Source: Tahibacter aquaticus
GTDB taxonomy: Bacteria > Pseudomonadota > Gammaproteobacteria > Xanthomonadales > Rhodanobacteraceae
NCBI RefSeq assembly: GCF_004363655.1
Contig: NZ_SNZH01000001.1
Location: 116,569-180,568, forward strand
Reading direction: 5' to 3'
DNA length: 64,000 nucleotides
Every line of letters begins with the position of its first letter. Within the stretch, counting starts at the first letter, position 1. Position numbers and translations under genes: made by a program. Under the pieces are notes generated by a model. The model worked only from the letters and a program-made list of their open reading frames with translations. It did not search any database and had not been told where the DNA came from. This document shows, piece by piece, positions 40,566 through 57,748 of the stretch.

Positions 40566-41897
40566 ATGCGACACAGACTCACGCTGGCCCTCGCTCTTGC
40601 ACTGATCGCCGGCAACGCCGGCGCTGCCACGCTGGCCCTGGTCGGCGGCACCCTGGTCGACGGCAGCCTGCGCGACCCGATCGACAACAGCGTGGTACTG
40701 GTCGAGAACGAACGCATCGTCGCCGTCGGGCGCGAAGGCGAAGTACGCATTCCCGCGGGCACGGAGATCATTTCCACCGAAGGCATGACCGTCATGCCCG
40801 GCCTGTGGGACATGCATGTGCATCTGATGATCAACGGCCATGCCGACTACGCCCACTGGGACAAGACCTACCTCGGCAAGATGCGTGACGTCATCATGCC
40901 CGCCTCGGCCAAGCAGCTGCTGCTGGCCGGCGTCACCGGCGCGCGCGATCTCGGCGCGCCGCTGAAGGAATCGATCGACGTCCGCGACGCGATACGCCGC
41001 GGCGAAATCCCCGGCCCCACCCTGTTCGTGTCCGGCCCGTTCATCCAGAAGAAACCCTACCCCGGCACCGAAGCCTTCCGCTGGGGCGTGGACTCGCCGG
41101 CCGACGCCCGCGCCAAGGTCAAGCGCCTGGCCGATGCGGGCGTGGACGTGATCAAGCTGATCGACCAGGACCAGATGTCCGAGGCCGAGATCGCCGCGAT
41201 CATCGACGAAGCCCACAAACACGGCAAACCCGTCGTCGCGCATGCGCACCGGCCCGAGGAAATCCGTCTGGCGCTCAAGCACGGCGCCGACTGCCTGGAA
41301 CACACCGGCCTTGCCGCCGCGCCCAGCTATCCCGACGACGTCATCGACGCCCTGCGCGAACGCACCGCCAACATGTCGCTGGGTCCGCTGTTCTGGACGC
41401 CGACCATCGAAGGCCTGTACAACTTTCCCTATGTGGTAAAACATCACGAACACATCGACGACAAGCGCTGGCACGAAGGCCTGCCCGACGACATCGTCGC
41501 CGACATCCGGCAAAGCCTGAGCCATCCCGAACGCATCAGCTATTTCCAGCAGACGCCGCAGCGCTGGCCCACGTTGACCACCAAGTTCAACCAGCTGCGG
41601 GAAAACGGCGCCCTGCTGCTGATCGGCACCGATTCCGGCATCCCGATGAAATTCCACAGCGACAGCACCTGGCACGAACTGGAAGTGTGGGTAAACCGCC
41701 TCAACGTTCCCGCCATCGATGCAATCCGCGCGGCAACCTACTGGCCTGCCGTGGCCATGAAGGCCGACAAGGACTACGGCACCGTTGCCGAGGGCAAATA
41801 TGCCGACATCATCGCCGTGCGTGGCGACGCCTTGCGGCATATCGCCCTGCTGCAGAATGTCGACATCGTGGTGAAGCACGGCAAGCGGGTGAAATAG
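40566..41897 (+). CDS. Secreted metal-dependent amidohydrolase
   Basis: 443 aa with a signal peptide (MRHRLTLALALALIAGNAGAA) and a GGGGAG ribosome site. The amidohydrolase barrel shows the first metal motif HVHL within WDMHVHLM, then VDVIKLIDQDQ in place of a Lys-bridged loop, HAHRPEEI and LEHTG for metal-2 and metal-1 histidines, and IGTDSGIP with the catalytic Asp. The family includes imidazolonepropionase-like and dipeptidase-like enzymes, often periplasmic prolidase/Xaa-Pro hydrolases. Substrate not defined; a peptide-degrading role would suit the window but is only inferred. Monocistronic. Confidence 0.88.
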   Translation: MRHRLTLALALALIAGNAGAATLALVGGTLVDGSLRDPIDNSVVLVENERIVAVGREGEVRIPAGTEIISTEGMTVMPGLWDMHVHLMINGHADYAHWDKTYLGKMRDVIMPASAKQLLLAGVTGARDLGAPLKESIDVRDAIRRGEIPGPTLFVSGPFIQKKPYPGTEAFRWGVDSPADARAKVKRLADAGVDVIKLIDQDQMSEAEIAAIIDEAHKHGKPVVAHAHRPEEIRLALKHGADCLEHTGLAAAPSYPDDVIDALRERTANMSLGPLFWTPTIEGLYNFPYVVKHHEHIDDKRWHEGLPDDIVADIRQSLSHPERISYFQQTPQRWPTLTTKFNQLRENGALLLIGTDSGIPMKFHSDSTWHELEVWVNRLNVPAIDAIRAATYWPAVAMKADKDYGTVAEGKYADIIAVRGDALRHIALLQNVDIVVKHGKRVK

Positions 41898-42304: not shown

Positions 42305-43165
42305 TCAATTCCAGCCCAGGGCCTGAGCAAACTGCGCAAAGGTCGGCGAAACAACAACCCAGCGATTGTTGCGCTCAGGCTGCGGCAACACCCATTGCAG
42401 CCGGATCACGCGCGGCTCCGCATCGCTATCGCGATAGTCCAGAGCCAGCAGCGAATCGCTGCCGAGAGGGAAATCGGCCACTATCACCGTTCGCGCAGGG
42501 TTGATCAGCTCGACTCTCGACCAACGTTGCAGCCAGCCGGCATGGCGCACCTCGATCTCCTGCAGGGCGCTGCGGAAAGGTGGCGCAAGTAGATCCAGAC
42601 CGTCTTCGTCAGGAACCATAGCCTGCAACCGCGGTGTTTCGATCGGTAGACTGGCGGGTTCAAAATGGCCGTCGTCATGCCACCGGGCCCAGCGCCCTTC
42701 ATGAATCATCGCGAGCAACGCGTCGGGTAGACGCAGCGACGCCAGCCGTGGGTCGGCGATCCAGTTGCGCGGAAATTCGCTCGCGGCTTCACCGAGTCGG
42801 TTCGCACTCCTGGCATTTACGGCCAACTGCGCCGCCGGAAAAACGGCGCGCGCTGGCTTGGTTGTCCAGCGCTGCCAGAGTCGGCTCCACGATTCCCCGG
42901 GCGACTTCCCGACAACCGTATCGAGCACTGCGCCGCACCAGGGACAATAGTGGAGCGGCAACCAGGCGCCGATCTTGAATGCCGGCAGCGTCGGATGCTC
43001 GGCGAAATAACGCTGAAAGATTTTGTCATCCGCCTGCGCATAGCTGCGGAAGTTGATGGAATACTGCCGCAGCATCTGCTCGGACTGCGTCACCTCCACC
43101 GAGAAGCCGGCCTGCCCCCAACGCTCGGCCTGGTGCTTCATGCCGTCGCAACAGAAGTCGGTCAT
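42305..43165 (-). CDS. Zn-ribbon-like plus SUKH/SMI1-like protein
   Basis: 286 aa from MTDFCCDGMKHQAERW with AAGGA 10 nt upstream; a longer start at 43234 is possible. The N-terminal 80 residues hold a split Cys set FCCDGM...YCPWCGAVL, a typical small zinc ribbon. The C-terminal part, from about residue 140, carries SUKH-like features: LPDALLAMI, GLDLLAPPFRSAL, and FPLGSDSLLALDYRDSD, which is the conserved SDS..LDYR strand of SMI1/KNR4 proteins. SUKH proteins often act as immunity proteins against nuclease or other toxins. No toxin gene lies nearby. It is followed on the same strand by another SUKH gene upstream at 43283. Confidence 0.68.
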   Translation of the reverse strand: MTDFCCDGMKHQAERWGQAGFSVEVTQSEQMLRQYSINFRSYAQADDKIFQRYFAEHPTLPAFKIGAWLPLHYCPWCGAVLDTVVGKSPGESWSRLWQRWTTKPARAVFPAAQLAVNARSANRLGEAASEFPRNWIADPRLASLRLPDALLAMIHEGRWARWHDDGHFEPASLPIETPRLQAMVPDEDGLDLLAPPFRSALQEIEVRHAGWLQRWSRVELINPARTVIVADFPLGSDSLLALDYRDSDAEPRVIRLQWVLPQPERNNRWVVVSPTFAQFAQALGWN

Positions 43166-43282
43166 GGCGCTTGCGTCCTTGCGTCCAGGTAAATAGTCAT
43201 GCTCGAGTTTGGCATTGCCGTGCCGTTCCTGCATCGACCGTTTGCCGGCAAATCGCTGTTTTCTTGGCGCAGCCAGCGCCAG

Positions 43283-43873
43283 CTATCCGAGCATGCTCCG
43301 CAGCGCCTGTAAACAGCGCTGCTGTTCGAATTGCATAAGCCCGCTGAACGTTGCGAAGCGCTGCGGTGCGAATTTATAGCGGATCAACAAGAACGCCGGT
43401 TTGCCCGAGCGCTTCAGTGGGTTGAACAGATACAGTCCGTTGGGACATGGCGCCGACAGCACCAGCAGGTCGGCAACGTCCGAATACATGAACGGCACGG
43501 CCGGGTCGCTGGCCTCCGCTTCGCCGACACCGGCGTAACCGGACAGCACCGCACGCAACGGCTCGGACGCGTCGCGCAGGAAATGCAGATCGCCGACCGC
43601 AAGAAGATCGGTATCGGTTTCGTCGAACCCGACCTGGTGCCATCCGTTCGACGCGCGGTAGAAAGCCGCCATGTCCGGCGGCAGCGCGAATCCCAGGCGA
43701 TGCTCCGCGGCGTCGAGCTGTCCCTGCGTCGCGCCGGGCCGCTGCAGCCGAGTGGAAAATGTCGCGTCGCGCTCGTCCGCGGCGAGCAACTCCTCGGGGA
43801 TCAGCGAAACGACAAGCTGCGCCTGGTCCTGCCAGGCGGCCAGATACGCGCTCCAGTCGGTTGCGGTATTCAA
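43283..43873 (-). CDS. SMI1/KNR4 (SUKH) family protein
   Basis: 196 aa. The SUKH start is clear: RPGATQGQLDAAEHRLGFAL and PPDMAAFYRASNGWHQV, then SDVADLLVLSAPC and YLFNPLKRSGKPAFLL strands. The start codon is TTG at 43873 with GAGG 9 nt before it. SUKH domains are best known as immunity modules paired with polymorphic toxins, but many are orphan. Followed by a second SUKH-like gene 117 nt downstream on the same strand. No partner toxin is visible within 10 kb, so it may be an orphan immunity gene, or have a housekeeping role. Confidence 0.8.
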   Translation of the reverse strand: MNTATDWSAYLAAWQDQAQLVVSLIPEELLAADERDATFSTRLQRPGATQGQLDAAEHRLGFALPPDMAAFYRASNGWHQVGFDETDTDLLAVGDLHFLRDASEPLRAVLSGYAGVGEAEASDPAVPFMYSDVADLLVLSAPCPNGLYLFNPLKRSGKPAFLLIRYKFAPQRFATFSGLMQFEQQRCLQALRSMLG

Positions 43874-44000
43874 CAGATGCGACCTCGAGTCGACAGGCGC
43901 CAGTGCGCAGCCAGTGTACGTGCGCCGCTCTGTCCGCTGCCAGCCTTGCCCCGAGGTCGGCGCTTCGCGGATATGGCCAGGCCGCTCGGCGCCGCCACTG

Positions 44001-45581
44001 TCAGCGCTGCATCACCCCATCGACCAGCCGCGCAATCTTCAGCGGATTGGCCTCCTGCAAGGCCGGCGGCAGCAGCGCATCCGGCACATTCTGGTAGCAC
44101 ACGCGGCGGGCGAAGCGCTCGATCGCCGCCGTGCCGACCGAGGTCGAGCGCGCATCGGAGCTGGCCGGATACGGGCCGCCGTGCACCATGGCCGCGCAGA
44201 CTTCCACGCCGGTCGGCACGCCGTTCATCAGCACGCGGCCCGCATTGCGCGGCAGCTGCAGCAGCAGCGGCGCCGCCGCGGCGTAGTCGGCTTCGTCGGC
44301 CAGCAAGGTCACGGTCAGCTGGCCTGGCAGGGCGGCAGCCAGCTGCAGCATCTGCGCCGCGTCGCGGGTGCGTACGATCAGGCTGGTCGGGCCAAACACT
44401 TCCTCCTGCAGGTGAGGGTCGCGCAGGAACGCATCTGCCGAGACTTCGAACAGGTTCGCTTGTGCACAACCGGCTTTTTGTACCGGAGCGACCAGCGCGG
44501 CCACATCGGCATGGGCGCCGAGTTGCGCCGCGCCCTGGGCGTGACGCTGGGCGATGGCCGCGGTCAGCATGACGGCCGCTGCCGAATCGGCAAAGCGCGC
44601 GCGCAGCGCGTCGCGCAGCGCATCGCCGTCGCCACCGGCGGGAATAACGAACACGCCAGGGCTGGTGCAGAACTGGCCTACGCCCTGCAGTACCGATGCA
44701 TGCAGCTGGGTCGCGATTGCCTCGGCGCGAACCTGGGCGGCCGCGGGCAGTACGAATACCGGATTGATGCTGCCCATTTCGGCATAGACCGGAATGGGTT
44801 GCGGCCGGGCCGCTGCCAGGTCCATCAGCGCGCGGCCGCCGGCCGTGGAGCCGGTAAACGCGACCGCAGATACCTGCGCATGCTGCACCAGCGCGGCGCC
44901 GACGGCGTGGCCAGCGTCGAACAGCAGCGAGAACGTGCCTGGCGGCAGACCGCAGCGCTGCACGGCCGCAGCAATGGCCGCGCCGGCCCGCTCGCTCGTG
45001 GCCGGATGCGCCGGATGCGCCTTGACGATGACCGGGCAACCGGCTGCCAGTGCGCTGGCCGTATCGCCGCCGGCAACGGAAAACGCGAGCGGGAAATTGC
45101 TGGCACCGAAGACGACGACCGGCCCCAGCGCGATGCGCTGCGAGCGCAGGTCGGGCCTGGGCAGCGGCTGGCGTGCGGGATCGGCCCTGTCGATACGCGC
45201 GTCGACCCAGCTGCCCTCTTCCACCAGATTCGCAAACAGTCGCAGCTGGCCGGTGGTACGCCCCAGCTCGCCGCTGGCGCGCGCCTGCGGCAATGCGGTT
45301 TCCCGCGGCACCAATGCTTCGAAATCGGCGCGGGCGGCTTCCAGTTCGTCGGCGATCGCACGCAGCAGCGCGGCGCGTTCGGCACCGCTGGTCTGCGCCA
45401 ATGCCGCACTGGCGCCGGCGGCCAGTTGCACGGCGCGTTCGATGTCCGCGGCCGTCGCACTGCGGTAGACCGGAGCGAGCGCTTCGCCGCTGCCCGGATC
45501 GACAGCGTGGAATTCGCTGCCGCTGGTGCTCGCGGGGTCTTCGCCGATCAAGGAAACGCCCTTCAGTGTGTACATTGACAT
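44001..45581 (-). CDS. 2-oxoglutarate semialdehyde (2,5-dioxovalerate) dehydrogenase
   Basis: 526 aa ALDH of the KGSADH type. VVVFGASNFPLAFSVAGGDT holds the catalytic Asn region, AFTGSTAGGRAL the NAD(P)-binding loop, EMGSINPVFVLP the catalytic Glu, and GQFCTSPGVFV the nucleophile Cys. It oxidises 2-oxoglutarate semialdehyde to 2-oxoglutarate, the last step of hydroxyproline (and pentose) degradation. It follows the deaminase gene after a 371-nt gap full of repeats, so it may also have its own promoter. Two ATGs (45581, 45575) are possible; the first has AGG 6 nt upstream. Confidence 0.92.
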   Translation of the reverse strand: MSMYTLKGVSLIGEDPASTSGSEFHAVDPGSGEALAPVYRSATAADIERAVQLAAGASAALAQTSGAERAALLRAIADELEAARADFEALVPRETALPQARASGELGRTTGQLRLFANLVEEGSWVDARIDRADPARQPLPRPDLRSQRIALGPVVVFGASNFPLAFSVAGGDTASALAAGCPVIVKAHPAHPATSERAGAAIAAAVQRCGLPPGTFSLLFDAGHAVGAALVQHAQVSAVAFTGSTAGGRALMDLAAARPQPIPVYAEMGSINPVFVLPAAAQVRAEAIATQLHASVLQGVGQFCTSPGVFVIPAGGDGDALRDALRARFADSAAAVMLTAAIAQRHAQGAAQLGAHADVAALVAPVQKAGCAQANLFEVSADAFLRDPHLQEEVFGPTSLIVRTRDAAQMLQLAAALPGQLTVTLLADEADYAAAAPLLLQLPRNAGRVLMNGVPTGVEVCAAMVHGGPYPASSDARSTSVGTAAIERFARRVCYQNVPDALLPPALQEANPLKIARLVDGVMQR

Positions 45582-45952
45582 TATTTACCTATTTACCGGT
45601 GAGCAGACTTGCAGCGATGGGTTTCGGTCGATGGGGGGGGCGAGGCACCACGCACCAGAAGCCCCCTCCCCCAAGCTGCGCTTGGAGGAGAGGGTTGGGT
45701 GAGCGGGCGCCGTGTCAGCCGCCTCGGCCTAACGACTGTCGCGATTGCCATCGCGCCAGCCAACGCCGAAAACCACTGGCTGAGGTGTACAGGCATTCCG
45801 CCCCCTCACCGCAACCCTCTCCCCCAGCGACAGGTCGGTGGGGGGAGAGGGAGTTCAGGCAACCACGCTCGATACGCGCAGCAGGACATCGGACCTTGCC
45901 GCATCGAATTTACAGCATCGAACTTGCCGTATCGAACTCACAGCATCGACCT
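45582..45952. repeat. Repeat-filled gap within the hydroxyproline operon
   Basis: Contains two CCCTC-type hairpins (45657-45702 with CTCCCCCAAGC/GCTTGGAGGAG, and about 45800-45856) and a block of four 14-nt tandem repeats (45901-45956, GCATCGAATTTACA type) abutting the deaminase stop. No gene. These probably entered between the last two operon genes. Confidence 0.7.
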
Positions 45953-45956
45953 TCAA
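45901..45956. repeat. Four 14-nt tandem repeats
   Basis: GCATCGAATTTACA, GCATCGAACTTGCC, GTATCGAACTCACA, GCATCGACCTTCAA in direct order, with a fifth weaker copy before them. Runs over the stop codon of the deaminase gene. Confidence 0.75.
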
Positions 45957-46852
45957 AGCACCGGCCGCTCGCGCAAAGCCTTGCGGATGATCGCCAGCGC
46001 ATCGTCGCGTTCGTTGCCGACCAGTTCCAGCCGCGGCGGGCGCACACGTTCGTGACCCATGCCGACCTCCTGCTGGATCAGCTTGATCAGCTGCACGAAC
46101 TTCACCACCGTATCCAGCCGCAGCAGCGGCAGGTGCCAGTGGTAGAGGGCGCGCGCTTCGTCCCAGCGACCGGCCTTGGCCAGTTCGAACTGCGCGACCG
46201 ATTCCTTGGGCAGCGCATTGACCGTACCCGCCACCCAGAACTCGGCGCCGGCGGCAACGCCTTCGCAGACCATGTCGTCCAGGCCCACGCCGACGCGCAG
46301 GCGCTCGCCGAGCAAGGCCACCAGCGCGGTGACACGGCGCGAGTCGCCGCTGGATTCCTTCACCGCTTCGAGGTTGGCAAATTCCGCCGCGAGTTCGGCC
46401 ACCTGCGCGGCACTGAAGTCGGTCTTGTAGGCCGGCGGGTTGTTGTAGAGCATGCACGGCAAGGCGGTGGCGCCGATGACAGCGGCCACATGCGCTTTCA
46501 TTTCGCGCCAGTCGCTGGAATAGACGTAGGGCGGCAATACCATCAGCCCGCCGCAACCGGCATCGGCGCTGGCCTGGGCCAGCTTTACCGCTTCGTCGGT
46601 GGACAGCGCGGCAATGCCGGGAATCACCGGCACGCGGCCGGCCGCGGCCGCGACGCAGGTCTTGATCAGCGCGACTTTCTCGTCGTAGGTCAGCGTCGCC
46701 CCTTCGCCCAGCGAGCCGCAGGGAATGATGCCGCGGCAACCATGCCCGATCAGCCAGTCGACGTGACGCGTAACGAAATCGTGGTCGATGCCCAGGTTGG
46801 CGTCGAACGGCGTGGTGATGGCGGGCAACACGCCTTGCCAGATGGTGCTCAT
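45953..46852 (-). CDS. 1-pyrroline-4-hydroxy-2-carboxylate deaminase (DapA family)
   Basis: 299 aa, a DHDPS/NAL superfamily TIM barrel. The pyruvate-family Schiff-base Lys is in EAVKESSGD (residue about 170), the Tyr in CMLYNNPPAY, and GSLGEGATLT is the loop after strand 2. In this operon it should deaminate and dehydrate 1-pyrroline-4-hydroxy-2-carboxylate to 2-oxoglutarate semialdehyde. DapA itself would lie in lysine synthesis and has a different context. The ATG overlaps the upstream flavoprotein stop by 4 nt. Confidence 0.9.
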   Translation of the reverse strand: MSTIWQGVLPAITTPFDANLGIDHDFVTRHVDWLIGHGCRGIIPCGSLGEGATLTYDEKVALIKTCVAAAAGRVPVIPGIAALSTDEAVKLAQASADAGCGGLMVLPPYVYSSDWREMKAHVAAVIGATALPCMLYNNPPAYKTDFSAAQVAELAAEFANLEAVKESSGDSRRVTALVALLGERLRVGVGLDDMVCEGVAAGAEFWVAGTVNALPKESVAQFELAKAGRWDEARALYHWHLPLLRLDTVVKFVQLIKLIQQEVGMGHERVRPPRLELVGNERDDALAIIRKALRERPVL

Positions 46853-48129
46853 GTCGGTTCCTGTGGATTTTCAGCGGAAGTGGAAAGGTTGAAACAACTC
46901 AGGCCAGCCGGAGCCAGCGGTGGCCGCGGCGTCGCTGCGCCCCAGCCGAACAGGAATTCGCAGGCCGCGCCGCAGACCCGGGCCTGGCAATGGCCCATGC
47001 CCAGGCGCGTCTGCAGTCGCGCGTCGCGCATGCTGCTGCAGGCTTTGGCCGCGCCGAAGGCGACGTTTTCGCAGCGGCACAGCACGGTGTCGTCCTGCGC
47101 CAGGCTGCGCAGTTCCGCGCGCAAGCCGAAGTGCCGGCGCAGGTGCGCGGCAAAACGCTCGCTGCCGCGGCGGCGGCGCTGCGCCGTCGCCGCCAGTTCG
47201 GCCCGGCCGGCGGCGGCGCAGCCGGCAATTTCGCCCTGCACCAGGGCCTGGTCGATGCCGCCGATGCCGGTGCCTTCGCCAGCGCAGTACACACCGGGCA
47301 CGCTGGTGTGCTGGTGCATATCGACCCAGACCGCACCGTCACGCAGTTCGCAGCCCAGCGCGCGGGCAATCTCGGTATTCGGCACCAGGCCGTAGCCGAC
47401 GGCGAGCGCATCGCAGTCCAGCTGCACGATCTGCCTGCCGCGGCGCACGATGACGCTGCGCACTTCGTTGTCACCCAGCGCCTGCGTCACCCAGCTGCCG
47501 GTGCGGTACGGCACGCCGATCAGCTTGCGCCACAGGCCGGCGGCCTGCACCACTTTGTGCGGCGTCCCGAGCAGGCCGCTGCCGAAGGCAGCCAGGTCGC
47601 GCCAGCCGCTTTGCTCGGCGATCAGCACGATCTGCGCGCCGAGGCTACGCAGACTGGCTGCCGCCGCCAGCAGCAAGGGACCGCTGCCGGCCACCACGAT
47701 GCGCTTGCCGGCAACCGGCCAGCCATTCTTGGCCAGCACCTGCAGGCCGCCGGCGCCGAATACGCCGGGCAAGGTCCAGCCTGGAAACGGCAGCAGGCGT
47801 TCGCGTGCGCCGGCAGCGATCACGGCGCGTTCGCAGTGCACGCGCAACGGACCGTCGGCACCGTCGAAAACGAACTCGCCGGGCGCCGGCACATCGACCA
47901 GGCGCAGGCCATAGCGGCCTTCCACCGGCGATGCCCGCAGCGCCGACAGCCAGCGCCGCGCGGTGGAATCGGTTGCCTTGTTCCATTGTCCACGCCAGAT
48001 CTGGCCACCTGGCTCGGCCTGCATGTCGACCAGCAGCGCACGCGCGCCGGCACGCTCGGCACTGACTGCTGCCGCGATACCGGCCGGACCGGCGCCGAGA
48101 ACCAGAACTTCGCTGCGCAGTTCACGCAT
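46849..48129 (-). CDS. D-hydroxyproline dehydrogenase, FAD/NAD(P)-binding subunit (HcnB-like)
   Basis: 426 aa. Residues 5-35 contain the FAD dinucleotide motif VLVLGAGPAGIAAAV, and around residue 150 a second, NAD(P)-type motif. Near the C-terminus a BFD-like [2Fe-2S] module is seen: VLCRCENVAFGAA, then GHCQARVCGAACEF. This is the HcnB/OoxA-type subunit of multi-subunit amine or imino-acid dehydrogenases. It probably works with the neighbouring [2Fe-2S] protein and FAD oxidoreductase to oxidise cis-4-hydroxy-D-proline, passing electrons to the respiratory chain. It overlaps both neighbours (8 nt and 4 nt). Confidence 0.88.
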   Translation of the reverse strand: MRELRSEVLVLGAGPAGIAAAVSAERAGARALLVDMQAEPGGQIWRGQWNKATDSTARRWLSALRASPVEGRYGLRLVDVPAPGEFVFDGADGPLRVHCERAVIAAGARERLLPFPGWTLPGVFGAGGLQVLAKNGWPVAGKRIVVAGSGPLLLAAAASLRSLGAQIVLIAEQSGWRDLAAFGSGLLGTPHKVVQAAGLWRKLIGVPYRTGSWVTQALGDNEVRSVIVRRGRQIVQLDCDALAVGYGLVPNTEIARALGCELRDGAVWVDMHQHTSVPGVYCAGEGTGIGGIDQALVQGEIAGCAAAGRAELAATAQRRRRGSERFAAHLRRHFGLRAELRSLAQDDTVLCRCENVAFGAAKACSSMRDARLQTRLGMGHCQARVCGAACEFLFGWGAATPRPPLAPAGLSCFNLSTSAENPQEPT

Positions 48130-48367
48130 CGCGCCAGATCTCCATGCCGGCCGCTACAGGGGTGAGACAGGCCAGGCGTTCGCGCCCGTCGATCTGTACG
48201 CGGCATTCGAAGCAGATGCCCATGCCGCAACAGGCAGCGCGGCGGCTGCCGTCATGGGCCAGCCGCGTCGCGGCATAGCCGGCCTGGCGCAAGGCCGCGG
48301 CCACCGAGCAGTCGCCGCGCACACGCACATCTTCGCCGTCGATCCGCACGCTGATTTCAGGCGGCAT
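48122..48367 (-). CDS. D-hydroxyproline dehydrogenase, [2Fe-2S] subunit (HcnA-like)
   Basis: 81 aa. A ferredoxin-like fold with the cluster motif CCGMGICFEC followed by a final Cys in RLACLTPV. Very short, as is usual for the gamma subunit of HcnABC/OoxAB-type dehydrogenases. It should shuttle electrons between the two flavoprotein subunits. It overlaps the beta subunit gene by 11 nt and the alpha subunit gene by 8 nt, so the three are made together. Confidence 0.9.
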   Translation of the reverse strand: MPPEISVRIDGEDVRVRGDCSVAAALRQAGYAATRLAHDGSRRAACCGMGICFECRVQIDGRERLACLTPVAAGMEIWRDA

Positions 48368-49493
48368 GGCTGACCTGGGCGGCGAACCGCGCCGGAGCGA
48401 ACGGGCGCGCGTCGAAAGGCAGTTCCAGCCCCAGCAGCTGCGCGGCGAGCAGGTCGGCCGTGCCCAGTGCGGTGGTCACGCCCAGGCCTTCGTGGCCACA
48501 GGCCAGCCACACGCCAGCGCGGGCCGGCCAGGGGCCGATCAGCGGTCTATGGTCGGGCGTGGTCGGGCGAAAACCGGTCCAGGCGCGCAGCGCCGTGGCA
48601 GTGGCAAGGCCCGGCAGAAATTCCTGCGCGCGCAGGATCAGGCGCTGGATCAGCCGCGGCGTGACCGTGCTGCTGACGTCGTCGAACTGGCGCGTAGAGC
48701 CCAGCAGCAGCTGGCCGCTGGGCCGCGGCTGCACATTGAACGCAACCGATTCGCCATCGCCGCCGTGCGCGCTTTGCATATAGCCCAGCTCCACCAGCTG
48801 ATGGCGCACCCGCGGCGCCGAACGCGTGGTGATGAGCAGATGTCCCTTGCGCTTGCGGATCGGCGCGCCGTAAAGCAGTTCCGGCGCAGCACAGCCGTTG
48901 GCCACGATGATATGCGGCGCCCGCAGTTCGCTGCCGTCGTCCAGCAGCACGGCGCCTTCGACCAGGTTCCGCACGCCGACGCCGCAGCGGATCTGCGCGC
49001 CCTGCGCCGCCGCCTGGCGCGCCAGCCAGGCCGCCGCCACCGGCGGATACAACATGCCGTCGCTGGCTACGCGCAGGCCGCCGGCCAGGCCGGCGGCCAG
49101 GGCGGGTTCCTGCTCGGCCAGGGCGGCGGCCGTCAGCAGCTCGCTGTCGATGCCCGCCTGCGCCAGGCGCCATTGCTTGCGCTGTGCCTCGGCCATTTCT
49201 TCCACATTTCGCGCAATCCACAAAGTTCCATTGCGCCGGTATTCCGCCGTCGCTGGCAAGGACGGCGCCAGCGCTTGCCAGCGCGCACAGGAATAGGCCG
49301 ACAACGCGAGTTCGGCCGCATCGTCGTCCAGCACTACCAGATGCCCCATCGATGCCGCCGTCGCGGCGCCACCGAGCACATCGCGCTCGACCAGACAGAC
49401 CGACAGCCCGGCCCGCGCCAGCCGCTCAGCAATGGCACAGCCGACGATGCCGCCACCGACGATCAGCACGTCGACGCTTGCGACCGTGCTCAA
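48357..49493 (-). CDS. D-hydroxyproline dehydrogenase, catalytic FAD subunit (HcnC-like, DAO family)
   Basis: 378 aa. The N-terminal Rossmann FAD motif is [21 protein letters not shown], and the DAO-type C-terminus contains [19 protein letters not shown] and [16 protein letters not shown]. The D-amino-acid-oxidase family includes the HcnC/OoxB subunits that abstract hydride from imino acids. With the epimerase gene directly upstream, cis-4-hydroxy-D-proline is the probable substrate. It overlaps the epimerase by 4 nt and the [2Fe-2S] gene by 11 nt. Confidence 0.9.
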
Positions 49494-50422
49494 GCAAGAC
49501 CCCAGGCAAACGGATCGGCCGGGTCGAAATGCAGCACGGCCTCGGCCACGACATGGGCACGGCCGGCGATGTAAGGCAGGATGGTTTCGTCATCCAGGCG
49601 CCGATACCAGGCCTGGAACTCGCTGCCGATCACGCTGCGCTGGCGCCATACCGCGCCCTCAGCCAGCTTTCCTTCGGCCGCCAGGCAGGCCAGCTTGGCG
49701 CTGGTACCAGTGCCGCAGGGCGAACGGTCATAGGCAAAACCAGGACAAAGTACAAAATTGCGCGAATCCGCCCGCGCGTCGGCCGCCAGCAGTTCCACAT
49801 GGTCGATGACGCCGCCGTCGCGCCCGCCGATGCCGGCCTCGTCCAGTGCACGGCGGATCGCCGAGGCAGCACCCATCAACGCTTCGATATTGTCCGGCGC
49901 AATGGCCAGGCCGTGGTCGTCGACCAGAAAGAACCAGTTGCCGCCCCAGGCAATATCGCCGTTCACGCGCCCCAGGCCCGTCACGTCCAGCGCCACCCGG
50001 CGCGCTTGGCGATAGCTGGCGACATTGGCAATGGTGACGCGGCCATCCTGCGCCAATTCCACTTCGACGACGCCGACCGGCGTTTCCAATTGGAACTTGC
50101 CCGCTTGTATACGCCCCAGATGATGCAGCGTCTGCGCCACACCCATGGTGCCGTGGCCGCACATGCCCAGGTAGCCGACATTGTTGAAAAACACCACACC
50201 GGCGACACAGTCGCTGCGCGTCGGCGGCAGCAGGTAAGCCCCCACTACCACGTCATTGCCGCGCGGTTCGCAGGCGATCGCGCGGCGCCAGGCATCCTGC
50301 TCCCGCTGCAGCCATTCCCGCGCAGCCGCTGGCGTCCGCCCCGCAAAATCCGGCCCGCCCGCCACGACAACGCGAGTCGGCTCTCCGCCGGTATGCGAAT
50401 CGATAACACGTGTTGCGCTCAT
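49490..50422 (-). CDS. 4-hydroxyproline 2-epimerase
   Basis: 310 aa, proline-racemase family. Catalytic Cys pair: [14 protein letters not shown] and [14 protein letters not shown]. The start [18 protein letters not shown] is the usual N-terminus. Hydroxyproline epimerases differ from proline racemases at a few active-site residues, and the operon (dehydrogenase, deaminase, KGSADH) settles the role: it converts trans-4-hydroxy-L-proline to cis-4-hydroxy-D-proline. First gene of the operon; the promoter should lie just above 50422. Confidence 0.93.
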
Positions 50423-50783
50423 GCAGGAATCGGCCTTGGACAGTCACGAAATGCTAACCAACCCGCCCCCGGCGCGATTGGCTCATCACCCTGTCAGGGC
50501 AGGACGAATCGCAAAGAAACCAGTACTCAGGCGTAGGTTAGACCAAAGTCATAAGCGGGAAATTGACAAAGATAAACCGGACCGCAGGTCACGAAATTGT
50601 GGTAGCGAGCAAATCATTAGCCCAGGTTCCCGGTCGGAACACTACCGATGCGGGTATCACTCGGCTGCGCGCGGGTACGAGCTATCCAAAACGACCACGG
50701 GTCCACACCGACTTGCGTCATCCCATGCAAGCGCAGCGAGCCGCACTGCCGCTACTGTCGCGCACGACCGCGCTGCGGCTTTG
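50423..50783. promoter_or_regulatory. Upstream region of the hydroxyproline operon
   Basis: About 360 nt, the presumed promoter region of the epimerase-led operon, before the first hexanucleotide tract. No gene, and no palindrome that I could assign to a regulator. Confidence 0.45.
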
Positions 50784-50850
50784 GCCGTAGCCGTAGCCGT
50801 AGCCGTAGCCGTAGCTTGTGGCTGTGGCTGTGGCTGTGGCTTGTGGCTGT
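50784..50850. repeat. GCCGTA / GGCTGT hexanucleotide tract
   Basis: Five GCCGTA units (50784-50813), then GCTTGT, three GGCTGT, GGCTTGT and GGCTGT. It precedes intergenic element copy A, as similar hexamers precede copies B and C. Confidence 0.9.
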
Positions 50851-50857
50851 TGCCGTA

Positions 50858-51045
50858 GCTTCTGCGCGCAGGAAGCGCGCGCTTGCCCCGGGGCCCCGTA
50901 TGCCGCGGTGAGGCCGCGCAGGGAAAAGCCCGCAGGGTCGCGGCCAGGGATGGCCGCGAGTCGGCGCAGGGGACAGGACGTCCCGTGCGTCGACCGCCGT
51001 AGCGGACTCACGCAGTTTTGGGCCATGGATGGCCCAAAACCGCGG
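50858..51045. repeat. Structured intergenic element, copy A
   Basis: Core starting GCTTCTGCGCGCAGGAAGCG, with hairpins TCGCGGCCA/TGGCCGCGA (50938-50959), a CGCA...TGCG stem enclosing GGGAC/GTCCC, and the palindrome TTTTGGGCCAT/ATGGCCCAAAA near 51015-51038. Copies B (57347) and C (62139) share the order of elements. Confidence 0.85.
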
Positions 51046-51068
51046 CATCCGGGGTGTCCTGGGAGAAT

Positions 51069-51123
51069 CCAAGGAGGGGATGGACAAGCATCCCCTCCTT
51101 GGTCGCGCGCCGTGGGCGCGCGA
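51069..51123. repeat. Two adjacent perfect hairpins
   Basis: CCAAGGAGGGGATG/CATCCCCTCCTTGG (14-bp arms, 6-nt loop, 51069-51102), followed at once by TCGCGCGCC/GGCGCGCGA (9-bp arms, 3-nt loop, 51103-51123). Found only in copy A's neighbourhood. Confidence 0.85.
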
Positions 51124-51130
51124 AACGCGC

Positions 51131-51425
51131 CGCCAGGCGCACAAGCAACCACGTCCGCCAACGGCGGACTCCTTCGCAAAAAACCACAAGACGGAGCAAA
51201 GTCCAGCACCGCCCCCTCACCCCAACCCTGTCCCCCGACAGCTGTCGGGGGAGAGGGAGCAAAGCGCAGCCCATGCGACCAACCCGTCGCCAGGCGCACA
51301 AACAACCACGTCCGCCAACGGCGGACTCCTTCGCAAAAAACCCAGCAGCGAGGCAGAGTCCAGCACCGCCCCTCACCCCAGCCCTCTCCCCCAAGCGAGC
51401 TTGGGGGAGAGGGAGCCACGAAAAA
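51131..51425. repeat. 157-bp tandem duplication with two CCCTC-type hairpins
   Basis: Units start CGCCAGGCGCACAA.CAACCACG at 51131 and 51288. Each has GTCCGCC/GGCGGAC and a CCCTCACCCC hairpin: CCCCCGACAG/CTGTCGGGGG (51232-51251) in the first and CCCTCTCCCCCAAGC/GCTTGGGGGAGAGGG (51382-51413) in the second. Confidence 0.85.
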
Positions 51426-51456
51426 AGCAAACCCGCAGCCCCGGCAAGAACAAAAC

Positions 51457-51488
51457 AAAAAAAGCCGCGGCGCATCCCGCGCCGCGGC
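51457..51488 (-). terminator. Terminator after the collagenase gene
   Basis: GCCGCGGCGC/GCGCCGCGGC, perfect 10-bp arms with a 5-nt loop, followed on the minus strand by seven T. It lies 42 nt beyond the collagenase stop. Confidence 0.93.
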
Positions 51489-51529
51489 CCAAATCACAAA
51501 AATTCAACAAATTCGACAAAAACCAAAAT

Positions 51530-53863
51530 TCACTGCCAGGAGGTAGCCACCTCCACCCCCGCAAACGAAGCCGTCCGCGGCTTGAGCATCACGTAGTACC
51601 AGCCACTGACCGGCGCAGCCACCGTCACTGTCTCATCGTTGCCCACCAGCTGCGGCGCGAAGTCGTATACGGTGTCGCTGGGCCATCCGCCGGCTTTCAC
51701 GTAGATGTCCGCATCGCCGGTTCCGCCGCCCATGATGAATTTCAGGTTGCTGCGCCCTGCCGGCAGCAGCACCGTGAGATAGACACGCGCGCTCGAATTG
51801 GCCGCCGACAGGCCGCTGCGCTTGCAGCCGTTGTCCAGCTGGCCGGCGTTGGTCGAGGTGCATTCGGGTATCACGGTGGGGCCGTTGCCGAAGTTGTCGG
51901 CGAAGATCGCATCCGGCTGGCCACCGTTGCAGACGGTGGTATCGCCGTTGTTGGCTGCAAAGCAGACTAGCCAGGCGCGGAACTCGGTGTTGTAGCTGCT
52001 GCGGATGGGATCGAGCCAGGCGCTGTAGCCGCTGGCGTAGTTGCCCGGACGCGATACTGCATACAGGCTGGCGATCTTGTCGCGATGCCGCTCGAACATG
52101 AAGCGTGAGGCCAGGTAGCCCCACTGGTAGGTGCGCGTATAGTCGGTGCTATATTCGGTATCGAACAATTGCGCCAAAGTAAACTTGTCCGGCGTGCCCG
52201 CCTCGTCGATGGCGTCGTCGTAGCGCAGGCTGCGGTACGAATACGACATGTATTCGGCAAAGCCTTCGATGTACCAGATGGTCGAGTAAGGCGCGTCCAT
52301 CGGCAGGGCGCCGAAGCCGCCGTACCAGTTGAAGCGGCCGTCGAGGTAGTGGATGTATTCGTGGGTGAGGTTCCACACCTGGAAATCCGGGCGCAGCCAC
52401 TCGGCCTCGTAGGCAAGGAAGCGCGCCTGGTTGGAAGGGTCGGACGGATCACCTTCGAGATAGATGCCGCCATTGTTGGTGTCGTTGCCGAAGATGATGC
52501 CCGAATAGGTTTCGTAGTCGGTGCTGGAATGGAAGATCACCATTTCCAGGCGCGCATTGAAATCGTTCGCCACCGGCGTGTTGTTGGTCTGGCTCTGGGT
52601 GTGGAAATAGCCTTCTTCCGCACCGACCACACTGCATACCGTGTCGAGTTGGGCCGCGGTCAGCGACTGGCTGCGTACGCGCAAGGTAGCGCTGCAGTCA
52701 CGCGCATTCGCGGCGGGCAGTACCTGTGCTTCCAGATCCTGCGCAAAGCTGCACAGGCCGTAGTAGCTGCAATGGGCGTGGTCATAGTAGTCGGTGACGC
52801 TGGCGATGCGCACGAAGATGCCGCCGCCCGCGCCGCCGATGCTGAAGGAATCCAGCACCGACTTGATCTTCGGATGCACCAGGCTGTGGAAGCTTGTCGC
52901 GCTGTACTGGCTGAAGCGGCCGAGTTCGCCCGCGGCGTTCTGCAGCATGTATTCGCGGTTGGAGCCTACGTCGGCGGCGCGGTTGTTGTTGATGAAGTTC
53001 ACCAGGGTATCGAGCACGCCGCTGCCGCTGCCCTGTACCAGGGCCTGGAAAGCCGGGTCGTAGTGGCCGCGGAACAGCACGGTGAAGACGCCGTTGGTGG
53101 ACGACTTCATGTAGGACAGGTTGGCCCAGCTCGGGCCGTAGCGGTCGAGAATGCCACGCACCGTGGCGAGCTGCTGCGCGTTCTCGCCGGCACTGTCGAT
53201 GAGGATGACGAATTCGGACAGCACTTCACCGTGGTCGTTGTTGACGTCGGCAAAGTGGCTGTTGGCGACGAAGGCATTCAATGCGGGGCGGATCGCATTG
53301 GTGAAGGCATTGCCGTAGCTGCCCACGTCGGGCTCGTTGTAGTACTGCACGTACAGGCCAGCGCGCAGGAATAGCACCAGCTCCAGCATGTTGTTGCTGT
53401 TATTGCCCGGATAGCTGGCGGCATCGGCCTGCATCGCGTTAGCGATGGTGACCATCTTGCTTTCGGCGAAGATCTGCCCCGCCGTTGTGCCGGTCACGTC
53501 GAACAGGCCGCCTGAATAGAAGCAGGTTTCGTCCGCTGCGCGAACCGCGGCGACGAGGGCGCTGCCGCTGGCGCTGGCGAAGCCGGCGATGTTGCAGGTT
53601 CCCCGCGCCGCACTGCGCAAACTGCGCGGTGCGTCATAGTCCTGATAGAGGTGATCGCGGGAAGAAGGCAGCGGCGCGCGGCGGTCCCAGTCGATGCGCC
53701 GGGTCTGGATATGGTCGGACGCTTCTGACAGCGAAGCGGTGGCGGCGGCCGGTCCTGGCCGTGGATCCTGCGGACGCGCAGCGGCGTCCAGCGGCAAGGC
53801 AGCAAAAGCCAGACACGCAGCCAGGCCAGCGCCGGCTTGCAAAAGCCGATCAAACGAATACAT
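51530..53863 (-). CDS. Secreted M9-family collagenase with PPC domain
   Basis: 777 aa from MYSFDRLLQAG (GGGGAG ribosome site; an earlier ATG is not used). Signal peptide, an N-terminal activator-type helical domain (about 80-400), then the M9 peptidase: HEYIHYLDGRFNWYGGF at residues 501-517 with zinc His501 and His505, Glu502, and the third ligand Glu533 in WYIEGFAEY. The region around residue 660 reads DAIFADNF, then a PPC domain completes the protein. It cleaves native or denatured collagen, releasing Pro/Hyp-rich peptides. Placed 1.1 kb from the hydroxyproline operon and divergent from a PAS-AraC regulator. Confidence 0.94.
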   Translation of the reverse strand: MYSFDRLLQAGAGLAACLAFAALPLDAAARPQDPRPGPAAATASLSEASDHIQTRRIDWDRRAPLPSSRDHLYQDYDAPRSLRSAARGTCNIAGFASASGSALVAAVRAADETCFYSGGLFDVTGTTAGQIFAESKMVTIANAMQADAASYPGNNSNNMLELVLFLRAGLYVQYYNEPDVGSYGNAFTNAIRPALNAFVANSHFADVNNDHGEVLSEFVILIDSAGENAQQLATVRGILDRYGPSWANLSYMKSSTNGVFTVLFRGHYDPAFQALVQGSGSGVLDTLVNFINNNRAADVGSNREYMLQNAAGELGRFSQYSATSFHSLVHPKIKSVLDSFSIGGAGGGIFVRIASVTDYYDHAHCSYYGLCSFAQDLEAQVLPAANARDCSATLRVRSQSLTAAQLDTVCSVVGAEEGYFHTQSQTNNTPVANDFNARLEMVIFHSSTDYETYSGIIFGNDTNNGGIYLEGDPSDPSNQARFLAYEAEWLRPDFQVWNLTHEYIHYLDGRFNWYGGFGALPMDAPYSTIWYIEGFAEYMSYSYRSLRYDDAIDEAGTPDKFTLAQLFDTEYSTDYTRTYQWGYLASRFMFERHRDKIASLYAVSRPGNYASGYSAWLDPIRSSYNTEFRAWLVCFAANNGDTTVCNGGQPDAIFADNFGNGPTVIPECTSTNAGQLDNGCKRSGLSAANSSARVYLTVLLPAGRSNLKFIMGGGTGDADIYVKAGGWPSDTVYDFAPQLVGNDETVTVAAPVSGWYYVMLKPRTASFAGVEVATSWQ

Positions 53864-54100
53864 TGCTTTCTCCCCGAACATCGTCTTGTGTGGATGACAC
53901 TGCACGAGCCCGGTGTTCCGGAGGCGGACGCGCTGCAACGCGTTCGCCTCCACCTGACTCCTGCAGGTCAGGATGCTAGGTTTGGTCCACGACCAGGGTC
54001 TAGCCGATTATCCGCACACGCACGAAACAATCCGCACAAAGCGGTTTTGCAGCGCAAATGCGCGAAAAATCGCGTTTGTGCAGGAGCGACAGGGGGCACT
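53864..54100. promoter_or_regulatory. Divergent collagenase/AraC promoter region with inverted repeat
   Basis: 237 nt. GGAGGCGGACGCG (53920-53932) and CGCGTTCGCCTCC (53939-53951) form 13-bp arms with one mismatch, a possible operator or leader hairpin for the collagenase gene. A second dyad ACCTG/CAGGT follows at about 53952-53968, and GCGCAAATGCGCG/CGCGTTTGTGC lies near 54052-54082 before the regulator gene. The layout suits shared control of both genes. Confidence 0.6.
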
Positions 54101-54862
54101 ATGAACAATGAACTGGCACGCTGGCGCGAGGCTTTCATGGCTCGCGTAGCCTCGCCGTGGTACGTGGAGACGCTGTTCGATCGACTGCCGGACATCGTGT
54201 TTTCGGTCAAGGACAAGCAGGGCCGCTATGTCTCCATGAGCGAGGCCGCCGTCGTTCGCTGCGGCCTGAAGCGCAAGCAGGATGCGATCGGCAAGACGGC
54301 GTTCGAACTGTTTCCGCGCCCCATGGCCGAACGTTATGTGCGCCAGGACGAGCGCCTGTTCAATACCGGCAAGCCCATCGTCGACAACCTCGACCTCACC
54401 GTCTACCGCGACGGCAGCGCCGGCTGGTGCCTCACCACCAAGGAGCCGCTGTACGACAACCAGGGCCGCGTCGTCGGCCTGGCCTGCATCTCCAAGGATC
54501 TGATCGAGCCCAGCCGCGCCGGCCTGATCGACACCGGCTTTGCCGATACCGTCGACTACATGCTGGAGAACTACGACCAGCCGCTGCGCATGGAAGACCT
54601 GGCGCGCCGTGCCGGCCTGTCGCAGGCGCAGTTCGAGCGGCGCATGAAGAAAATCTTCCACTTGTCGGCCGGGCAGTACCTGATCAAGGCACGCATCGAC
54701 CACGCGGCGCGCCTGCTCGCTTCCACCGCGCTGCCGATTGCCGACATCGCCCAGCACGCAGGCTTTTCCGACCAGAGCGCACTGTCGCGGCAGTTCCGCC
54801 AGGTCACCGGCTTCGCACCGCGGCAGTACCGCCAGCTGATGCGGCCCGAGGGCATGGAATAA
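54101..54862 (+). CDS. AraC-family regulator with N-terminal PAS domain
   Basis: 253 aa from MNNELARWREAF with AGGGGG upstream. Residues about 20-130 are a PAS-like sensor (FDRLPDIVFSVKDKQGRYV, AIGKTAFELFPRPMA, YDNQGRVVGLACISKDL). Residues about 150-250 are a double HTH of the AraC/XylS kind (MEDLARRAGLSQAQFERRMKK, PIADIAQHAGFSDQSALSRQFR). PAS-AraC proteins usually sense small ligands. Divergent from collagenase and 3.7 kb from the hydroxyproline operon, it may activate one or both. LhpR-like AraC regulators control hydroxyproline genes in Pseudomonas, but this protein's target is unproven. Confidence 0.9.
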   Translation: MNNELARWREAFMARVASPWYVETLFDRLPDIVFSVKDKQGRYVSMSEAAVVRCGLKRKQDAIGKTAFELFPRPMAERYVRQDERLFNTGKPIVDNLDLTVYRDGSAGWCLTTKEPLYDNQGRVVGLACISKDLIEPSRAGLIDTGFADTVDYMLENYDQPLRMEDLARRAGLSQAQFERRMKKIFHLSAGQYLIKARIDHAARLLASTALPIADIAQHAGFSDQSALSRQFRQVTGFAPRQYRQLMRPEGME

Positions 54863-54927
54863 GCCGCGAAGCTGCGGCATGAGCGGCCGCGCTACACTCG
54901 CGGCCGCTCATCTGCGAAGGAACTGCC

Positions 54928-55695
54928 ATGCTCGGACATCGATTGCTGTGCCTGCTGCTGGTGTCCGGCGCGATGGCTGTGCCGGCCAGCGCGACGGACG
55001 TGCTGCTGTTCGCCGCCGCCAGCCTGAAGCCGGCGCTGGAAGAGATCAGCGCCCTGCCCGAAGCCAAGGCCATCGGCGAGATCAATGCCAGCTACGCGGC
55101 GAGTTCGGCGCTGGCACGGCAGATCGAGGCCGGCGCACCGGCCGATATCTTCATCTCGGCCGATCAGGAATGGATGGACTGGCTGGCCGAACGCGGCAAG
55201 ATCGTCGCGGCGACGCGCTTCGAACTGGTACGCAACGAACTGGTACTGGTCGCGCCGCAGGCGTCGAGGCTTCAGTTCACGCTGGACGACAAGACCGACC
55301 TGCGCGCCGCGCTGGGCGATTCGCGCATCGCCCTGGCCGAGCCGGGCAGCGTGCCGGCGGGCAAGTACGCCAAGGCCGCACTCGAAAAGCTCGGCCTGTG
55401 GACACACGTGCAAGACAAGTACGTCGCCGCGGAAAACGTGCGCGCCGCATTGGCATTGGCCGCGCGGGGCGAAGTGCCGCTGGCGGCGGTGTACCGCTCG
55501 GATGCGGTGTCCGAAACGTCGGTGCGCGTGATCAGCACGTTCCCGGCCGACTCGCATCCGCCCATTGTCTATCCGGCCGCGGCGCCGGCCGGCCATGACA
55601 ATGCGACAACACGGCAATTGCTGCAATTGCTGCGCTCCGACCAGGCACAGGCCATCCTGCTGCGCTGGGGATTCCGCACCGCAAAGGCCGACTGA
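54928..55695 (+). CDS. modA: Molybdate ABC transporter, substrate-binding protein
   Basis: 255 aa with a signal peptide (to about ASATD, residue 25). The ModA fold begins DVLLFAAASLKPALEEI; SYAASSALARQIEAGAPADIF and AEPGSVPAGKYAKAAL carry the ligand-contacting Ser and the hinge motif. It binds molybdate/tungstate in the periplasm. AAGGAA precedes the ATG. First gene of a tight modABC unit (modB follows after 6 nt). No modE regulator gene is near and no riboswitch was seen before modA. Confidence 0.93.
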   Translation: MLGHRLLCLLLVSGAMAVPASATDVLLFAAASLKPALEEISALPEAKAIGEINASYAASSALARQIEAGAPADIFISADQEWMDWLAERGKIVAATRFELVRNELVLVAPQASRLQFTLDDKTDLRAALGDSRIALAEPGSVPAGKYAKAALEKLGLWTHVQDKYVAAENVRAALALAARGEVPLAAVYRSDAVSETSVRVISTFPADSHPPIVYPAAAPAGHDNATTRQLLQLLRSDQAQAILLRWGFRTAKAD

Positions 55696-55701
55696 AGCGC
55701 C

Positions 55702-56391
55702 GTGCTGAGTGCGGCGGAAATCGACGCCCTGGGCATCAGCCTCAAGGTGGCCCTGCTCAGCATCGTCGTGGCCCTGCCGTTTGCACTGGGCCTGGGCCTG
55801 GCGCTGTCACGGCTGCGCTTTCCCGGCAAGAGCGTGATCGAAGCGCTGCTCACCCTGCCGCTGGTGCTGCCGCCCGTGGTCACCGGCTATGCGCTATTGG
55901 TACTGCTGGGACGCAACGGCGCTGTCGGCCACTACCTCGACATGATCGGCATCCGCTTCGCCTTCCATTGGAGCGGCGCCGTCGTCGCGGCGGTGGTGAT
56001 GAGTTTCCCGTTGCTGGTCATTTCCATACGCGCAGGCTTCGACGGCGTGGACCGGCGCCTGGAAGCCGCGGCCGAATCGCTGGGGGCCGGACCGTGGAGG
56101 CGCTTCGTCACGGTCACCCTGCCCTTGTCGCGACGTCATCTGATTGCCGGCTGCGTACTCGCATTCGCGCGTGCATTCGGCGAATTCGGCGCCACCATCA
56201 GTTTCGTCGGCAGCATTCCAGGCGAGACGCGCACCTTGTCCATCGCGATCTGGGAATTGCTGAACCAGCCCGGCGGCGAAGGCAGTCTGCTGCGGCTGGT
56301 ATGGGTGGCCCTGGCCGTCGGCATCGCCGCGTCGTTTGTGGCCGCGCTGCTCGGCCGGCGCGCGCAACAGGAAGCCGCTGCGCATGATTGA
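55702..56391 (+). CDS. modB: Molybdate ABC transporter permease
   Basis: 229 aa from a GTG start. Five or six TM helices; the coupling EAA-like loop is ESLGAGPWRRFVTVTLP, contacting ModC. ALGLGLALSRLRFPGKSVIEAL and LPLVLPPVVTGY are typical of ModB. It forms the homodimeric channel for molybdate. It ends 8 nt inside modC, so the two are translationally coupled. Confidence 0.93.
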   Translation: MLSAAEIDALGISLKVALLSIVVALPFALGLGLALSRLRFPGKSVIEALLTLPLVLPPVVTGYALLVLLGRNGAVGHYLDMIGIRFAFHWSGAVVAAVVMSFPLLVISIRAGFDGVDRRLEAAAESLGAGPWRRFVTVTLPLSRRHLIAGCVLAFARAFGEFGATISFVGSIPGETRTLSIAIWELLNQPGGEGSLLRLVWVALAVGIAASFVAALLGRRAQQEAAAHD

Positions 56392-57046: not shown

Positions 57047-57240
57047 TTTGCCGACGCGGTGCGAAGGTGGTGGCAGGGCTCAGCTCAACGGCTGAAACCT
57101 TGTACTGAGGCACGGCGATGTTGAGATTCGCCTCTCCTTCGCCAGCGGTTCTTCGTGGCGGAGGCCCCTCGATGTTGGGATTCGCCTGCGGCTCATCGCC
57201 AACCTATGTCCGCCCATTTTTTGTAGTTGCCGCGCAGCGA
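57047..57240. other. Intergenic region between convergent genes, left part
   Basis: Between modC (plus) and pit (minus). It has a TTCGCCT..CGGCGG-rich sequence without a clear terminator for modC. No gene. Confidence 0.4.
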
Positions 57241-57313
<73 letters not shown>

Positions 57314-57346
57314 TCGTGATTGTGCTTGGCCTTGGCCGTGGCAGTT

Positions 57347-57615: not shown

Positions 57616-57655
57616 CTTTGACTTCAAGCCCTCCAACGCACCGCCACCCACGATT

Positions 57656-57735: not shown

Positions 57736-57748
57736 GAAAATCAAAACA

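Follow-up and report, generated by a model that had tools for sequence, protein, structure and literature searches.

A collagenase and hydroxyproline gene block in Tahibacter aquaticus with a predicted two-box operator common to its two promoters

Where the gene for a secreted collagenase stands beside the genes that consume hydroxyproline, are the two switched as one unit, and by which protein? The question is raised by positions 44001-54862 of a 64,000-nucleotide (nt) stretch (the window) of the 7.27 Mb, 82-contig genome of Tahibacter aquaticus, in which the gene of an M9 collagenase is divergent from that of a PAS-AraC regulator and lies on the same strand as a hydroxyproline operon. The original prediction took extracellular collagenolysis and hydroxyproline use to be one regulated unit, a claim that gains sequence support from the conserved neighbourhood, the co-occurrence of the genes and a shared operator. 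We think it quite probable that the block is a collagen-to-2-oxoglutarate utilisation unit, in which collagenase and operon would be switched via one operator by a regulator of the group termed clade A below. The genes, including the collagenase with its HEYIH motif, are all present and in frame as originally described:

51530..53863, minus strand: secreted M9 collagenase; signal peptide (by eye), PF08453 (M9 N-terminal), PF01752 (M9 catalytic), PF04151 (PPC)
54101..54862, plus strand: PAS-AraC regulator, clade A; PAS_4 and HTH_18, from the translation
49490..50422, minus strand: 4-hydroxyproline 2-epimerase; PF05544, HypE NCBIfam models below cut-off, PDB relative 2azp
48357..49493, minus strand: putative D-hydroxyproline dehydrogenase subunit, DAO-type FAD; PF01266, function from operon context
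48122..48367, minus strand: putative D-hydroxyproline dehydrogenase subunit, 2Fe-2S; PF13510, function from operon context
46849..48129, minus strand: putative D-hydroxyproline dehydrogenase subunit, FAD/NAD (SoxA-like); PF07992, TIGR01372 far under cut-off, function from operon context
45953..46852, minus strand: DapA-like deaminase (putative); PF00701, function from operon context
44001..45581, minus strand: putative 2-oxoglutarate-semialdehyde dehydrogenase (KGSADH); PF00171, nearest structures 3v4c and 1eyy, function from operon context

The starts taken for collagenase and regulator are ATG 53863 and ATG 54101; a first-start rule would give longer open reading frames (ORFs).

By its domains and its HExxH...E site the product of 51530-53863 is an M9 collagenase, for which cleavage of native collagen is predicted. 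The M9_N and M9 catalytic domains score 199 and 338 bits (cut-offs 23.9 and 26), and the zinc site H501-E502-x-x-H505...E533 is invariant among 16 aligned collagenases, E533 being what we take to be the downstream Glu of the M9 site. The nearest solved chains, 7esi, 9l5o and 7wss (presumably from Vibrio and Grimontia), have the same N-terminal and catalytic M9 domains and the same HExxH...E arrangement when compared over the collagenase unit only (~550 aa). A second M9 gene (50% identity) is found on another contig of the T. aquaticus genome.

Gene families and operon context also support the pathway originally read from trans-4-hydroxy-L-proline to 2-oxoglutarate. The epimerase, with 2azp (PA1268) as its closest PDB relative (E 5e-117), narrowly misses two HypE NCBIfam equivalog cut-offs (425 against 442 and 403 against 450 bits), and is so named because of its operon context and of the motifs MCGHGT and SPCGTGT, which align with 4j9w and which we take to be the two catalytic Cys motifs of the family. 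The FAD/NAD, 2Fe-2S and DAO genes are contiguous, the arrangement of a three-subunit D-hydroxyproline dehydrogenase, and this activity is predicted for them. The DapA-like protein has a DHDPS domain and stays under the dapA equivalog cut-off (158 against 206 bits), as does the KGSADH under that of NCBIfam AlphKGSA (111 against 770 bits). The description of the operon as overlapping holds for five of its six genes, in which four neighbouring pairs (epimerase, DAO, 2Fe-2S, FAD/NAD, DapA-like) overlap by 4-11 nt; it fails for the KGSADH gene, set off from the DapA-like gene by 371 nt of repeat-bearing DNA. No transporter or prolyl peptidase gene occurs among the genes of 44001-54862.

Eight Tahibacter species were compared, and gene order was mapped on 40 stretches. 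The regulator, collagenase, epimerase, DAO, 2Fe-2S, FAD, DapA and KGSADH genes keep their order and strands in five of the eight (G000, G014, G050, G079, G091), so that the block is more than a chance assembly; in a sixth, G103, it is divided over contigs and the KGSADH gene was not seen. The search of related genomes that had been suggested thus finds a neighbourhood that is not unique to this strain. The distance of 1.1 kb between collagenase and operon was correctly reported and is long compared with the 0.30-0.47 kb of five relatives, the extra DNA being repeat-rich; the gap thus appears to have been lengthened by the repeat-rich stretch at 50700-51520. In G036 the collagenase gene is missing, the regulator is directly divergent from the epimerase gene, and an operator of the collagenase type is retained beside this clade A regulator (L102:10059(-)), likely as a relic of collagenase gene loss.

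In a sample of 197 genomes from the family (Rhodanobacteraceae), M9 was matched in 24 and the epimerase in 69 (both at E <= 1e-60), and PAS-AraC in 75 (E <= 1e-30); the epimerase accompanies M9 in 22 of these 24 genomes, against 47 of the 173 genomes without an M9 match (Fisher p 1e-9, kinship not corrected). A class-level scan of 369 genomes gave M9 matches in two Tahibacter genomes only and the epimerase in 21, too few to gauge linkage. Among the best 80 of at least 337 M9 loci in named genomes, a survey biased to close relatives in which some flanks end at contig edges, an epimerase homologue (E <= 1e-8) was found within 10 kb in 20, and 16 of these had DAO, FAD and DapA matches as well. 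These 16, from the same best 80, fall in three phyla (3 Tahibacter, Pyxidicoccus, Myxococcus, 9 Streptomyces, Saccharothrix and Micromonospora), and a Colwellia cluster is described in PMC7883544, so the original view that the proximity of collagenase and operon is unusual is not supported. The pairing recurs with a GntR regulator in Streptomyces and PAS-AraC here, which suggests repeated assembly of one unit. The epimerase, KGSADH and DapA trees each have a branch (supports 99/98, 100/100 and 87/85) that separates Tahibacter, G016 and two Myxococcota from seven operons belonging to other genera of the family. The two Myxococcota loci (L183, L185) carry an A-like regulator, a collagenase and a convergent operon, with epimerase, DapA and KGSADH 58-71% identical to those of the window; transfer of the block between phyla is possible.

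The link between the two halves was sought in their promoters, with the following predicted elements:

53998..54039, minus strand: two-box operator of the collagenase promoter, TTGTGCGGATT ... TAGAC; predicted site, aligned in six Tahibacter
53973..53978, minus strand: -10-like TAGCAT of the collagenase promoter; in 4 of 6 aligned Tahibacter
50476..50515, minus strand: operator of the epimerase promoter, TTTGCGATTC ... CCAATC; predicted site, TGCGAWTYN24YCAAKC in 7/7 Tahibacter epimerase promoters
50451-50456, minus strand: -10-like TAGCAT of the epimerase promoter; in 5 of 7 Tahibacter

Two boxes are common to both promoters at a near-fixed spacing of 34-37 nt box to box. The six aligned collagenase promoters have TTTGTGCGGATTGT, then (T/A)AGACC, then TAGCAT (four of six), and the seven aligned epimerase promoters T(T/G)TGCGA(T/A)T(C/T), 24 nt, (C/T)CAA(T/G)C, then TAGCAT (five of seven). 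Outside Tahibacter the epimerase occurs in 62 genomes, and the 22 promoters with a retrieved locus and sufficient upstream sequence were read: 21 have T(A/G)TGC and, exactly 37 nt on, TAGAC or a near variant, and the remaining one, in G016, has a variant at 36 nt. From box 2 down to the -10-like hexamer the distance is about 24 nt, which puts this box at the position of a -35 hexamer and would be the geometry of a class II activator.

Explicit patterns, each with its reversed-pattern control, were then scanned. In the T. aquaticus genome, TTGTGCNNATTN{23,26}WAGAC matches once, at the collagenase promoter (control 0); three one-mismatch matches were also listed for this genome. Over the 197 family genomes, TTGTGCNNATTN{23,27}WAGAC gave 39 matches (control 1), comprising 18 epimerase promoters, 12 of them outside the 22 read before, 10 collagenase promoters (one, in G103, assigned from the neighbouring regulator) and 11 sites elsewhere. 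The pattern T[AG]TGC.{30,33}[TA]AG[AT]C has 38 matches in 620,846 bases: at 12 of 21 collagenase promoters, at 8 of 9 non-Tahibacter and 0 of 7 Tahibacter epimerase promoters, before TonB receptors beside clade B (3), at the relic beside clade A in G036 (1), 410-450 nt before A-type regulators without a collagenase (3), and at 11 others. TGCGAWTYN24YCAAKC has 11 matches in the eight Tahibacter genomes (control 0), seven at the seven epimerase promoters and four elsewhere, and none in G065, the Tahibacter genome without the operon. In genus g16 the variant TTGTCGAA...CAAGAC occurs at both the collagenase and the epimerase promoter of G016, 727 kb apart, and at those of G037, and a scan of these two genomes with TTGTCGAAN{26,30}CAAGAC found one other match, in G016 (control 0). 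To our reading, no other single observation points as strongly to one protein reading both promoters as this shared change at unlinked sites.

A position weight matrix (PWM) built from 21 non-Tahibacter epimerase promoters proved strict, only 10 of the 21 collagenase promoters scoring past the 99% background level, and was given up for the explicit patterns. By eye, its top-scoring site was the aligned one in some 18 of these 21, and the level was passed at 0 of 4 A-type regulators without a collagenase and 0 of 4 PKD-protein promoters.

Surroundings were read for seven of the 11 strict matches elsewhere: those of G146, G080 and G116 precede a TonB receptor, an S9 prolyl oligopeptidase and an M1 peptidase, and those of G091, G171, G028 and G052 have no clear target downstream, no family search of the downstream ORFs having been made. 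The remaining four matches lie in G093, G189, G094 and G075. The operator stands before TonB-dependent receptors at L109:6251(-), L171:9468(-), L172:8550(-) and L167:4527(-), three of them beside clade B, and these receptors are candidate importers of collagen peptides. It is also found upstream of the S9 prolyl oligopeptidase (L170:4242(+)) and the M1 aminopeptidase (L166:4915(-)), in two other genera. The epimerase promoters of the two Myxococcota read, by eye, TTTGCG(C/T)GATT ... CAAGAA ... CCTAGG.

Which protein would bind? In a tree of 41 family PAS-AraC sequences chosen from the matches, three groups separate: A (22 rows, 100/100), C (6 rows, 100/100) and B (13 rows, 92/86). By their places in this tree A and B are paralogous groups, A beside the collagenase and B beside the epimerase: clade A is divergent beside the collagenase in 16 of 21 loci with a readable promoter and not in 5, paralogous second copies being outside the count, and clade B adjoins the epimerase in 6 of 9 mapped non-Tahibacter epimerase loci. 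No clade B member was found in Tahibacter or g16 among the PAS-AraC matches and in the tree, and clade A therefore probably controls both collagenase and operon in Tahibacter. The PAS-AraC matches of g16, one in G016 and two fragments in G037, are all A-like. A more distant second PAS-AraC is present in seven Tahibacter genomes (six in clade C, that of G103 not placed), and G050 has an additional, A-like second copy. Clade C adjoins a large secreted-type protein, with PKD/PPC/P-domain in L101 and L110, and a PPC-bearing protein in L134 and L135. Over 28 sequences, A and B agree around GWC, in the PAS signature, and along much of the second helix-turn-helix, which would fit one ligand type and one proximal box. 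The Myxococcota regulators, outside the 41-sequence tree, are 58-63% identical to that of the window.

We propose the following scheme. The secreted collagenase would cut collagen or gelatin outside the cell, and imported peptides would be hydrolysed by other peptidases, freeing trans-4-hydroxy-L-proline, which the epimerase would convert to cis-4-hydroxy-D-proline. The three-subunit dehydrogenase would oxidise the latter, the DapA-like enzyme would then deaminate the product, and oxidation by KGSADH would give 2-oxoglutarate. The clade A regulator would sense a hydroxyproline-linked metabolite by its PAS domain, perhaps hydroxyproline or its D-epimer, and would activate rather than repress both promoters by binding one two-box operator; the usual regulator of the operon would be clade B, not found in Tahibacter, where clade A would have taken over both halves. 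In a wider form of the proposal, towards which we lean slightly, PAS-AraC proteins would form a family of collagen/hydroxyproline sensors not described before. In Rhodanobacteraceae and part of the Myxococcota they would control, via one two-box operator, a collagen regulon made up of the hydroxyproline operon and the genes for an M9 collagenase, a TonB receptor, a prolyl oligopeptidase and an M1 aminopeptidase. The regulon would be split between two ancient paralogues in most genera that have it, and in Tahibacter its whole pathway would have passed to the collagenase regulator after loss of the other.

Several observations weigh against one unit under one regulator. G065 has the collagenase and a clade A regulator without the operon, and its genome has no epimerase match; the second M9 gene of T. 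aquaticus lacks the strict operator in the genome scan; and in the Myxococcota the intergenic DNA at the collagenase showed no operator of this kind. Box 1 of the Tahibacter epimerase operator is one base shorter and its box 2 is YCAAKC, not TAGAC, and the PWM places 0 of 7 of these promoters above the 99% background level. The strict regular expression recovers 12 of 21 collagenase promoters, the others being variants or misses, and 11 of the 39 strict family matches fall elsewhere. The patterns were drawn from overlapping alignments, which makes the scans partly circular, their independent part being the additional genomes and the reversed controls. KGSADH and epimerase both lie under their NCBIfam equivalog cut-offs.

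The difference in box 2 would suit two separately regulated neighbours, clade A running the collagenase only and the operon being constitutive or under another regulator, as would the state elsewhere in the family, where clade A stands by the collagenase and clade B by the epimerase as separate units. We judge this arrangement quite unlikely in Tahibacter, given that clade B was not found there or in g16, that both unlinked g16 promoters carry the same operator variant, that clade A is directly divergent from the operon in G036, and that the box geometry agrees between the two kinds of promoter. Read-through is another route to joint expression and is compatible with the proposed unit: since collagenase and operon share a strand, and lie 0.30-0.47 kb apart in five relatives, the collagenase promoter could drive one long transcript in most Tahibacter, where the operon begins 0.3-0.5 kb downstream. 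It seems unlikely, the epimerase having its own conserved upstream operator in seven of seven genomes, with TAGCAT in five, and 1.1 kb of repeat-rich DNA separating the genes in this strain. Very improbable, to our mind, is an accidental linkage in which the operon would use hydroxyproline that comes from plant cell-wall glycoproteins or elsewhere, while the collagenase would act on proteins other than collagen; 47 of the 69 epimerase-bearing family genomes have no M9 match at E <= 1e-60, which speaks for it, but the linkage recurs in Actinomycetota, Myxococcota, Tahibacter and, according to PMC7883544, Colwellia genomes. The unit switched by clade A is thus the reading we retain; it names a precise regulator and operator, both open to test, by which collagen digestion outside the cell would be coupled to hydroxyproline use within it, and the operator is usable to find further members of the collagen regulon.

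The collagenase leader contains one further element:

53920..53951, minus strand: conserved stem-loop in the collagenase 5' leader, 14-bp stem and 4-nt loop; seven Tahibacter genomes

The stem-loop is kept in all seven Tahibacter genomes with a collagenase leader, with 95.9% of cells paired and both sides changed in 4 of 14 pairs. For pairing, two-sided changes and covariation score, 0 of 500 shuffles were as high and all values fell when the stem was slid; a fourth measure, further pair types, did not exceed the shuffles (308/500) and counts against it. Rfam at gathering thresholds gave no match in 43000-56000. The hairpin may protect the mRNA or tune translation.

Outside the coding part, repeat-rich intergenic DNA occupies 50700-51520 and 57047-57748, with tandem GTAGCC/GTGGCT and CCGTTG, an array of the 8-nt CGATCCAG, and direct repeats of 92 nt and 48 nt. 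At 40566-41897 (plus strand), 2.1 kb beyond the KGSADH gene, is an amidohydrolase related to Xaa-Pro dipeptidases (194 bits, cut-off 500), of a kind also seen after KGSADH in G014 and G091, which could release proline or hydroxyproline from dipeptides.

How does the block compare with known systems? The PA1268 region of Pseudomonas aeruginosa presumably holds an epimerase, a multi-subunit dehydrogenase, a deaminase and a KGSADH as in the Tahibacter operon, and we take it to have no adjoining M9 collagenase and an AraC-type regulator without PAS. This operon is named in a figure legend of PMC6608401. The same paper describes control by HypR of Streptomyces coelicolor over both the hydroxyproline operon and the M9 collagenase SCO5912, that is, one regulator for both halves as proposed here; HypR, however, is a GntR-like repressor, and the gene number of SCO5912 is far from those of the operon, whereas Tahibacter has a PAS-AraC regulator and another operator. 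The closest counterpart in gene content is the collagen-utilisation cluster of Colwellia (MAG BB5, C. piezophila and C. psychrerythraea GAB14E), in which, according to the accessible part of PMC7883544, the genes for an epimerase, a D-hydroxyproline dehydrogenase and a KGSA dehydrogenase share a cluster with that of an M9 collagenase; in Tahibacter, too, the M9 gene lies within 10 kb of the hydroxyproline catabolic genes. The BB5 cluster spans about 21 kb with an MFS transporter, a TonB receptor, prolyl peptidases, isomerases and the regulator PutR, and that part of PMC7883544 mentions no shared operator, whereas the Tahibacter block spans about 11 kb, without a transporter and with a PAS-AraC regulator. 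A literature search covering few subscription journals, judged from search listings, returned no description of a PAS-AraC regulator of this kind. The pairing of collagenase with hydroxyproline catabolism is thus already known from the Colwellia cluster and the Streptomyces regulon, and what appears new, as far as searched, is the PAS-AraC regulator family, the two-box operator and the covarying hairpin in the collagenase 5' leader.

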